Virus record (IMG/VR): IMGVR_UViG_3300049729_000081
Location: 1 to 38,628 of that record
Source: a virus
Direction: 5' to 3' (one strand)
DNA length: 38,628 nucleotides
The first letter of the stretch is position 1. Each line of letters starts with the position of its first letter. The notes beneath the pieces are model-generated. The model was not told where the DNA came from, ran no database searches, and saw nothing but the letters and a program-made list of their open reading frames with translations. The translations under genes were made by a program, and so were the position numbers. Positions 26,114 to 33,872 of this stretch are shown here, in pieces.

Positions 26114-26745
26114 GATTTTGCCTTAAACCGGCCCTTGGCGTCTCGAATTGGAACATTCTTGGTGCCGAATTTCGCCTTGAGCCAGTCCGCGCACAGCGCC
26201 AGGATCATCCCATATTCCTCGATCTGACTCGGCGTATATCCCTGCGCCTTACCGATGGATTTGTAATGGGCCTGCCACTGGGCCACCGAATAGCGCTGGC
26301 ATCCGATCTGAATCTCGGTGTGGGTGCATGTGGTAACACCGTGTTTGGTTCCACTGATAAACAGGGGCGAGAAAGTCCAGGCATCGCCGAAGACCCGGGC
26401 ATCGCCGGAGACCCGGGCATTGTCGGAGACCCGGGCATTGCCGGAGACCCGGGCATTGCCGGAGACCCAGGCATTGCCGAAGACCTGGGCATCGCCGGAG
26501 ACCCGGGCATTGCCGAAGACCTGGGCATCGCCGGAGACCCGGGCATTGCCGGAGACCCGGGCATTGTCGGAGACCCGGGCATCGCCGTAGACCCAGGCAT
26601 TGCCGAAGATCATCCCTTCGATGGTTGCGGTCGCAGCAACGTGTGCGGTGTTCTCGATCCAGCCGCCGCCCTTTGAGTGCCGATGCCACTCCCCACGGAC
26701 CAAGGGGCCGAGTTTGGCCTGCAATTCTTTGAATGTGATGCTCAT
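26110..26745 (-). CDS. Left-handed beta-helix (hexapeptide-repeat) phage protein
   Basis: A 211-residue protein. Residues about 35-130 are near-identical six-residue steps of the form (N/D)ARVSG or (N/D)AQVFG, the pattern of a left-handed beta-helix, encoded by tandem 18-base repeats. After it comes a conserved-looking domain: SPLFISGTKHGVTTC, HTEIQIGCQRYSVAQWQAHY, GYTPSQIEEYG. I have seen this repeat-plus-domain arrangement in other phages with no known role. The fold also occurs in acyltransferases, but no catalytic His is evident. GGAGG precedes the ATG. It overlaps RusA as ATGA. Confidence 0.8.
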   Translation of the reverse strand: MSITFKELQAKLGPLVRGEWHRHSKGGGWIENTAHVAATATIEGMIFGNAWVYGDARVSDNARVSGNARVSGDAQVFGNARVSGDAQVFGNAWVSGNARVSGNARVSDNARVSGDARVFGDAWTFSPLFISGTKHGVTTCTHTEIQIGCQRYSVAQWQAHYKSIGKAQGYTPSQIEEYGMILALCADWLKAKFGTKNVPIRDAKGRFKAKS

Positions 26746-27101
26746 ATATCCTCCAGGATAATGGTTGTTGACGGGTAAATTTTGCGGGATACAACCTGCG
26801 GCAAGGCGATTAATTCCAGGTGGGTGTCATCGTCGTCAACGATAAGGCGCTCGGCTTTAATGGCGTCGATCAGGGCCTTAAATCCGCCGATGAGATTGTC
26901 TCGGTCCAGCCGGCCGCGTCCAGTGCGCTCGATGGATACGCGGCGCTTCCCCGTTGCCACGGGGATCTGGGCCTGACGGTTCAGGGCCGAGCGCAACGAC
27001 CAAGCGATCTTCTCTTTCTCTCGCCGAACCCATGACCAATGCTGCCCCTGCGTCTGATTCAGGCTCATGGTGGCGAAGGGAAGGTTGATGGTCCATTTCA
27101 T
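26742..27101 (-). CDS. rusA: RusA-type Holliday junction resolvase
   Basis: A 119-residue protein; E. coli RusA is 120. It shows the metal-binding motif RLDRDNLIGGFKALIDAI (D66 and D68 within residues 64-82), then ERLIVDDDDTHLEL (residues 84-97) with the third Asp cluster. RusA dimers cut four-way junctions symmetrically, resolving recombination and packaging intermediates. The ATG at 27101 (MKWTINLPF) has AGGA upstream and matches the family N-terminus. It sits after the methyltransferase fragment. Confidence 0.88.
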   Translation of the reverse strand: MKWTINLPFATMSLNQTQGQHWSWVRREKEKIAWSLRSALNRQAQIPVATGKRRVSIERTGRGRLDRDNLIGGFKALIDAIKAERLIVDDDDTHLELIALPQVVSRKIYPSTTIILEDI

Positions 27102-27102
27102 G

Positions 27103-27246
27103 CTAGGCCGTCCTTTCTTCGCATGAGGGTGCGCCATGCGAGGCAAGCTCGACGGCGCAGACGGGCACATGGCCGAGAAGGAGTCCGCCGAGGATGCCTC
27201 CACCGGCTCCGGCGAAGAGATGCAGTTCACGAAGTGGAACATTCAC
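27103..27246 (-). pseudogene. Truncated cytosine-5 DNA methyltransferase N-terminus
   Basis: A 47-residue frame starting at GTG (27246), which overlaps the upstream stop as GTGA. It reads ELHLFAGAGGGILGGLLLG, the SAM-binding motif I of C5 methyltransferases, almost the same as residues 3-21 of the enzyme at 32786, then ends two bases before rusA. Everything after motif I is missing, including the catalytic PCQ motif. It is probably a recombination or deletion remnant, though the ribosome site (AGGAAGG) and coupling are intact so a peptide may still be made. Confidence 0.65.
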
Positions 27247-32745: not shown

Positions 32746-32785
32746 CACCTGTCCAAATCCGTGAACCAACCAACCACGAGGAACG

Positions 32786-33872
32786 ATGAATGAGCTGGCT
32801 CTTTTCGCAGGCGCTGGTGGAGGCATTCTCGGAGGCAAGCTCCTTGGATGGCGAACCGTGTGCGCCGTTGAGCGTGATGCCTACGCTGCACAAGTTCTGG
32901 CGCAACGACAAAACGATGGAATTCTCGAAGCTTTCCCAATTTGGTCTGACGTGTGCAGTTTTGACGGAAGACCATGGCGAGGAATTGTTGACATCATTTC
33001 TGGCGGTTTCCCTTGCCAGGACATCAGCGCAGCCGGCCGAGGGGAGGGGATCGACGGGGCCAAGTCTGGACTCTGGTCTGAATTTGCACGGATCATTGGC
33101 GAGGTTCGACCTCGATTCGTCTTCGTGGAAAACTCCTCAATGCTCACTCATCGAGGGCTGGGACGAGTTCTCGGAGACCTGGCCCGCCTGGGGTTCGATG
33201 CGGAATGGTGTGTCCTGGGGGCGGACGATGCCGGAGCTCCCCACATCCGAAAGCGGATCTGGATCTTGGCCCACTCCAACGGTGAACGGGAACTACAACC
33301 GGAAGGGTCTTTCCTCGCAGTCGGGGGACGGGCTGGCAACGGCAGTGGCAAACTTCCCGACTCCGACGGCCACGAACACCAAGGCCAACCACATGAGGAG
33401 TGCGGGCCGACCGTCCCGGTCCTACTTCCCGTCCCCGATGGCTTCGGACTGCGAGGCCCGGGGTGGGCACCGCGGGAACCTCGACACCCTGACCAGCTTC
33501 ACCAAGGCGTTCCCGACGCCCTGCGCCCGAGACTTCCGCAGCCCAAACCTGAAGCCCTACTCCGAGCGGGGGGGGCAAGAAAGGGGAACAACTCGTGAAC
33601 TTCATCGCGCACTTTCCAACACCCCGAGCCGGATCCAGCAACGGTGGCGGAACCGGCTTAGACGGTGGCTCGAATGCCAGGCGAGCTCTGGCCAGGGACC
33701 ATGGGGAGGTCGAAGCGAAAGCCCTTCTTGGTGGGCAACTGAACCCGCCCTGGGTCGAGTGGCTCATGGGGTGGCCCATCGGGTGGACCGACTTAAAGCA
33801 ATCGGGAACGGACAGGTTCCAGCAGTGGTCCGACTCGCATTCCAAACCCTCTACCGCCGCCTAATCGGCTGA
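32786..33872 (+). CDS. DNA cytosine-5 methyltransferase, interrupted at a G(8) tract
   Basis: The frame from 32786 has C5-methyltransferase motif I (LFAGAGGGILGG, 6-17), motif IV with catalytic Cys77 in SGGFPCQDIS, motif VI as VENSS (114-118) and motif VIII RIWILAH. It then stops at 33598, 23 bases after eight Gs (33568-33575), without motifs IX-X. The other end, GRVAHGVAHRVDRLKAIGNG then QVPAVV (motif X), lies in the +1 frame up to 33872. With seven Gs the two parts join into one roughly 361-residue enzyme. So the gene is either off by slippage (phase variation), a base-call error, or recently broken. It would protect phage DNA from host restriction. Confidence 0.8.
32790..33872 (+). CDS. 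Overlapping reading frame with FPTP repeats (dual coding with the methyltransferase)
   Basis: A 360-codon frame starting four bases inside the methyltransferase start and open through the whole gene. It has five (W/F/Y)P(T/S)P motifs about 20-40 residues apart (SWPTPTVNGN, NFPTPTATN, YFPSPMASD, AFPTPCARD, and HFPTPRAG in the continuation). With seven instead of eight Gs it would end in GGQLNPPWVEWLMGWPIGW then TDLK (33724-33798), a C-terminus I recognise from phage methyltransferase-associated proteins. The same one-base change therefore repairs both frames. It may be a real overlapping gene or a shadow conserved because of the enzyme; I lean to real for the 3' half. Confidence 0.5.
   Translation: MSWLFSQALVEAFSEASSLDGEPCAPLSVMPTLHKFWRNDKTMEFSKLSQFGLTCAVLTEDHGEELLTSFLAVSLARTSAQPAEGRGSTGPSLDSGLNLHGSLARFDLDSSSWKTPQCSLIEGWDEFSETWPAWGSMRNGVSWGRTMPELPTSESGSGSWPTPTVNGNYNRKGLSSQSGDGLATAVANFPTPTATNTKANHMRSAGRPSRSYFPSPMASDCEARGGHRGNLDTLTSFTKAFPTPCARDFRSPNLKPYSERGGQERGTTRELHRALSNTPSRIQQRWRNRLRRWLECQASSGQGPWGGRSESPSWWATEPALGRVAHGVAHRVDRLKAIGNGQVPAVVRLAFQTLYRRLIG
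33568..33575 (+). repeat. Poly-G(8) slippage tract
   Basis: Eight consecutive Gs inside the methyltransferase gene. Homopolymer G tracts of this length are typical contingency loci in bacterial and phage methyltransferases. Length seven restores the methyltransferase frame and that of the overlapping frame. Confidence 0.8.

Follow-up and report, generated by a model that had tools for sequence, protein, structure and literature searches.

A nearly complete gene overlap in phages and plasmids probably encodes both subunits of a split C5-cytosine DNA methyltransferase

The window that we analyzed is a stretch of 38,628 nucleotides of viral DNA (IMG/VR record IMGVR_UViG_3300049729_000081). Two reading frames on its plus strand begin four nucleotides apart, at 32786 (frame A) and 32790 (frame B), in the sequence ATGAATGAG. 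A putative Shine-Dalgarno-like motif (GAGGA, 32778–32782, +) is shared by both start codons, and such a motif lies upstream of the paired starts in nearly all relatives. Frame A, whose N-terminus is MNELALFAGAGGGILGG, encodes a protein that we call alpha, with motifs I–VIII of the C5-cytosine methyltransferases (32786–33598, +; PF00145, phrog_363). It has 270 codons in the window, where it is cut off past a run of G nucleotides. A first-pass annotation of this DNA had described a +1 frame that starts four bases inside the enzyme and is open for 360 codons, and this is correct: the frame B ORF at 32790–33872 (+) has 360 codons without interruption. Ahead of the G run, it encodes most of a protein that we call beta (32790–33567, +), which begins MSWLFSQALVE and contains (W/F)P(T/S)P repeats. 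Frame B residues 65–234 match PHROG_1008 (E = 4.5e-22), and the part of beta ahead of the run is conserved across about 200 loci.

The G run (G8, 33568–33575, +) is the point where both proteins change frame. The tail of beta continues in frame C (33576–33864, +), with a fifth PTP motif and the C-terminus, and ends at a TAA stop codon (33862–33864). The proper end of the frame B protein, LNPPWVEWLMGWPIGWTDLKQSGTDRFQQW, is read in frame C. This tail includes a motif IX-like sequence, LNPPWVEWLMGWPIGWTDL (33739–33795, +, frame C), which aligns with EWMMGWPAGWVT of fused enzymes. The tail of alpha is in frame B (33723–33872, +; phrog_32758, phrog_363); it contains motif X (IGNGQVP) and ends at a TGA stop codon (33870–33872). 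The enzyme's motif X region, DRLKAIGNGQVPAVVRLAF, lies at about 33783–33848, within the last ~50 residues of the frame B ORF. Because the alpha tail enters frame B and the beta tail enters frame C at the same G8 run, one indel breaks both proteins, and neither subunit is intact in the window copy as read. The first-pass annotation had also reported that removing one base would repair both frames and would give the +1 frame an ending familiar from phage proteins. Both points stand: this lone run parts the halves of both proteins, and the familiar ending, LNPPWVEWLMGWPIGWTDLK, sits beyond it in frame C (33739–33795). The five PTP motifs attributed to the +1 frame need a correction. Four (W/F)P(T/S)P motifs do precede the run, but the fifth (HFPTPRAG) lies past it in frame C, so the count of five is correct only for the joined product.

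The neighboring genes encode an Erf-like annealing protein and a RecE-like exonuclease (a phage recombination module). We did not recognize a restriction enzyme gene adjoining the locus, and Rfam had no match there. Elsewhere in the window, a relic of a second methyltransferase 5' end (27144–27229, −) is 73% identical over 86 bases. It sits at the start of the ORF of a RusA-like gene (26742–27242), whose N-terminal extension reads a B-like frame. Also, a tandem repeat (ARVSGNARVSG...) at 26205–26745 lacks stops in several frames, on either strand, and would encode a frame-degenerate repeat protein.

Alpha has the motifs of the catalytic half of a C5-cytosine DNA methyltransferase: motif I, the PCQ loop, motif VI (which reads ENS where a form like ENV is expected), and the RxR of motif VIII. 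It matches PF00145 with E = 7.7e-31, over positions 4–166 of the 324 in the profile, and HMM matches end after motif VIII. Among 54 relatives, residues F7, G9, P76, C77, Q78, E115, N116, R155, and R157 are invariant, as are G247, N248, G249, Q250, and V251 of motif X. (We considered whether L057, L065, and L072 had lost motif I and rejected this, as the motif starts 14 residues later in these proteins.) AlphaFold modeled the large domain and a C-terminal motif X helix with confidence, while most of residues 184–247 were below a pLDDT of 50. Foldseek matches to M.HhaI and M.HaeIII covered only about 172 of 327 residues (on the length of M.HhaI). We found no recognition domain or motif IX in the alpha chain, whose middle is unconstrained and unmodeled, so alpha does not have the makeup of a single-chain enzyme.

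The second half of beta is homologous to the region that alpha lacks. In Babsiella gp54, Jabberwocky gp4, and Phinally gp5, one ORF encodes the catalytic motifs, LPTP repeats, EWMMxxPAG(W/H)V, and then motif X; such single-chain actinophage enzymes have motifs I–VIII, PTP repeats, EWMMGWPAGW, and motif X in a single frame. We used hhalign to compare 104 B proteins to single-chain enzymes (a template of only 3 sequences) and obtained a probability of 95.9 and E = 5.7e-9 over B columns 157–246. This alignment pairs the PTP repeats and the VEWLMGWP end of B with the stretch just before motif X of the fused enzymes. The PTP repeats are of low complexity, so the score may be partly compositional, but the motif IX end is not. 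The (W/F)PTP-repeat, recognition-domain-like region lies at 33267–33567 (+) and is constrained in frame B only. Farther along, LNPxWVEWLMGWP fits both the place and the pattern of motif IX (compare LTPRECARLMG of E. coli Dcm). Thus motif IX is in B and motif X (KAIGNGQVP) is in A. Given this distribution of motifs, the hhalign result, the unmodeled middle of A, and its coverage of only half of M.HhaI, A looks like the large domain of such an enzyme and B looks like the small domain. The first-pass annotation had not gone this far: by its sequence, the +1 protein is recognizable as the target-recognition and motif IX half of the same enzyme family.

Other comparisons with B said less. AlphaFold, given B and 104 relatives, yielded no confident fold (pLDDT 52.5); this fits a domain that needs a partner, and a disordered protein would give the same result. 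A search of PDB sequences with B gave nothing credible, and there was no match in Pfam or NCBIfam. A profile comparison with three classical single-chain methyltransferases was set aside because the alignment was too divergent. The N-terminal half of B, which is overprinted on the catalytic domain, has no counterpart that we could see in the single-chain enzymes and is absent from Camperdownii gp75; our guess is that it has a docking role.

Two-chain C5-cytosine methyltransferases have precedents. In M.EcoHK31I, the beta frame overlaps alpha out of frame. In the phage locus, in contrast, beta starts 4 nt after alpha, the overlap is almost complete, and no adjacent restriction enzyme gene is recognized. 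According to PMC3404938, M.EcoHK31I (YGGCCR) consists of two polypeptides; the large subunit has motifs I–VIII and X, while motif IX belongs to the small one. The phage locus divides its motifs in the same way; the likeness is one of motif distribution. The recognition domain of M.EcoHK31I was predicted to be in alpha, whereas in the phage locus only beta is constrained in that region. PMC3404938 also describes M.AquI, which is active as two chains and, like the phage locus, has its split after motif VIII, ahead of the recognition region. M.AquI alpha has motifs I–VIII, and its beta has the rest of the recognition region along with motifs IX and X, whereas the motif X of the phage locus is in alpha. 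Actinophages have single-chain enzymes as well as paired genes. Babsiella gp54, Jabberwocky gp4, and Phinally gp5 share the catalytic motifs, PTP repeats, EWMMxxPAG, and motif X with the phage locus, but all in one frame and without the N-terminal half of beta. Several hundred actinophage records, mostly from mycobacteriophages, contain a relative of B, and among the pairs listed, Camperdownii gp76/gp75 for example, the A-type gene comes first and the B-type gene overlaps it by about 180 bp; both are called methylases. The mycobacteriophage gp76/gp75 pair has the AquI-like arrangement. PHROGs has B (PHROG_1008) and A (PHROG_363) as separate families, both labeled DNA methyltransferase, and does not note the overlap. 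Our searches of open-access papers gave no account of dual coding in this family. The EcoHK31I/EaeI system did not turn up in our plasmid searches. Separately, V. cholerae plasmid pW7G encodes a single-chain C5-cytosine methyltransferase (L261, 1204–2448) in which motif X precedes motif IX (LNPVFAERMLGYP near the C-terminus), so it looks like a natural circular permutation.

Selection is not uniform along the overlap. The catalytic half shows constraint in both frames. For enzymes with 90–95% amino acid identity, there were 0.128 third-position differences per codon in this part of the overlap and 0.282 in single-frame ORFs that flank the locus in the same contigs. Third positions accounted for 54% of all differences in the overlap versus 75% in the flanking genes. 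Also, if the codons are shuffled while preserving the enzyme, the identity of B drops in 23 of 29 independent pairs (unbiased set, z = 4.8). The middle third shows clear constraint in frame B only. At 90–95% nucleotide identity, amino acid identity in this region is 0.70 for A and 0.93 for B, and differences concentrate at the third position of B (0.29, versus 0.05 and 0.05 at the other two). In the tail region, both frames are constrained. Apart from the middle third, there is purifying selection in both frames over the overlap, as expected of an overprinted gene.

Could frame B nevertheless be an accidental open frame, or a gene-calling artifact, that is conserved only via the enzyme? G+C-rich DNA does tend towards an open +1 frame. 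For instance, in the Shinella locus (L258, 69% GC), shuffling gave P = 0.55, so the open frame is uninformative by itself. For the window alone, shuffling predicts 2.0 stops in frame B and there are none (P = 0.043), so the case for dual coding rests on the relatives. Searching IMG/VR with B yielded 80 loci, and searching it with A, which is blind to B, yielded 80 more, partly shared with the first set. Both frames are open to recognizable C-terminal motifs in at least 62 of 65 distinct complete loci from the search with B. Both are open in at least 70/77 such loci from the search with A and in at least 63/76 from a third search, which covered bacterial genomes. As some full-length variants are thrown out by the motif filter, all three counts are minima. 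Among 67 relatives, which came mainly from the search with B, we saw 32 stops in frame B, while synonymous-codon shuffles of frame A predict 274. Most of the 32 sit in the ragged few codons past B's own stop; L039 has the one clear internal stop. AT-rich cases argue against chance as well: in shorter versions of the pair from a plasmid of Bacteroides fragilis (38% GC) and a plasmid of the archaeon Methanomethylovorans (41% GC), 0 of 2,000 shuffles were as open in each, which excludes an open B by chance. The start of B is also preserved. Asn-2 of the enzyme is encoded by AAT in all 193 of the loci that have asparagine there, while elsewhere in the same genes AAT accounts for just 169 of 696 asparagine codons (76% are AAC). 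This choice of codon preserves B's ATG. The start peptide of B, M(S/T)WLFSxAL, is retained in L057, L072, L065, L121, L123, L139, and L154 over unrelated enzyme residues (frame A reads MNDMAIQQSTNGG and similar), and in L139 it is encoded even beyond a stop in A. Together with the wobble pattern of the middle region, these results refute an accidental open frame as the explanation for the family, and we give it almost no weight for this locus. Dual coding, on the evidence of these sequence comparisons, holds strongly. The first-pass annotation had proposed a dual-coding gene of about 1 kb and had named two tests of it, namely constraint on the enzyme's synonymous sites and stops in the +1 frame of relatives; both have now been run, and neither counts against the proposal.

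If frame B is a gene, it might still encode a protein that lies outside the enzyme, such as one that counters restriction or acts in regulation and overprints a methyltransferase that is complete by itself. The N-terminal half of B lacks a counterpart in single-chain enzymes, and B alone has no known fold, as might be expected in that case. However, alpha has neither a constrained recognition region nor a motif IX of its own, whereas both are present in B, in the right order, and B aligns with the corresponding part of the fused enzymes. Actinophages also carry B-type ORFs adjoining A-type ORFs. We consider a role outside the enzyme to be unlikely. Instead, the locus is very probably a naturally split C5-cytosine DNA methyltransferase that is expressed from one transcript, with both subunits overprinted.

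Given the frame shift at the G run, another possibility is that the functional product is the +1 ORF as read, with 360 codons that join the head of B to the motif X tail of alpha. This ORF is uninterrupted, and the nearest relative (L003) has the same arrangement, with 11 G at the same site, in the same phase modulo 3 as the window's 8. Before the run, the wobble pattern of the middle region follows frame B. Past the run, the two sequences have 11 differences, of which 9 fall on frame C third positions (P = 0.0014 for random placement), and this is our basis for placing the beta tail in that frame. These cause just 1 amino acid change in the tail of B versus 8 in the tail of alpha. So, as these viruses diverged, selection acted on B as read first in frame B and then, past the run, in frame C. 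Also, nearly all relatives lack the shift. A functional 360-codon product is thus very improbable.

Since selection tracks beta across the run, the run might be slipped over, be phase-variable, be a recent break, or be an assembly error. We lean towards the run being, in both contigs, a sequencing or assembly artifact or else a mutation that inactivated the gene recently. Homopolymers are error-prone, and other isolated copies (L145, L150, L169, and also L039) are broken without homopolymers. On the other hand, the two contigs, whose +1 proteins are 78% identical, carry runs of 8 and 11, lengths that agree modulo 3. Because the nearest relative shares the shift, repair of both frames by one change may point to slippage or phase variation rather than to damage alone. 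It is possible, but doubtful, that this one run switches or slips both overprinted subunits together, by transcriptional, ribosomal, or replication slippage. If so, the switch would overlie an ancient, widespread, and almost fully overlapped pair of methyltransferase genes.

Returning to the split enzyme, we infer how it might work. From a single Shine-Dalgarno sequence, ribosomes would begin at one or the other of the start codons, which lie 4 nt apart (NTGAATGAG), and both subunits would thus be made from the same mRNA. Alpha would contribute the large domain, with SAM binding, the PCQ catalytic loop, motifs I–VIII, an unconstrained linker, and motif X. Beta would contribute an N-terminal half that is encoded over the catalytic domain, the (W/F)PTP-repeat target-recognition region, and motif IX. 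Beta would be responsible for sequence recognition and alpha for the chemistry, and the two would assemble into an active heterodimer for site-specific methylation of phage DNA. The purpose is probably protection from host restriction, which is a likely use given the neighboring recombination genes (Erf-like and RecE-like).

Judging from the sequences, many bacteria have phages, prophages, or plasmids with the overprinted pair, and at least one archaeal plasmid has it too. We did not see a standalone B without A, only some decayed A frames (L184, L222, L228, L232, and L233). Full-length pairs are present in contigs from Pseudomonas, Acinetobacter, enterobacteria, Leptospira, Nitrosomonas, Verrucomicrobia, and Anaerolineales. 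Annotations include just one protein of the pair, which may be either A or B. In a P. aeruginosa plasmid (L259, 1439–2125), RefSeq lists the beta frame alone, naming it a hypothetical protein, and has no gene in the enzyme frame. The pair is intact in a prophage of E. coli PT62 (L176). A prophage copy in E. coli PCP07014 (L177, 3001–3762) is a RefSeq pseudogene, in which neighboring changes stop both frames at one spot. In L169 (3001–4300), the methyltransferase seems to have taken in an HNH-like reading frame, in the third frame, and both subunits are displaced.

Out-of-frame overlaps of near 1 kb in which both products are conserved are rare in prokaryotic genomes, and this family is a large natural data set on two proteins that share one DNA sequence. 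If the locus does encode a split enzyme, then a recombinant test with just the annotated frame would leave out the recognition subunit, and tools for targeted methylation could draw on the family for a naturally split methyltransferase.
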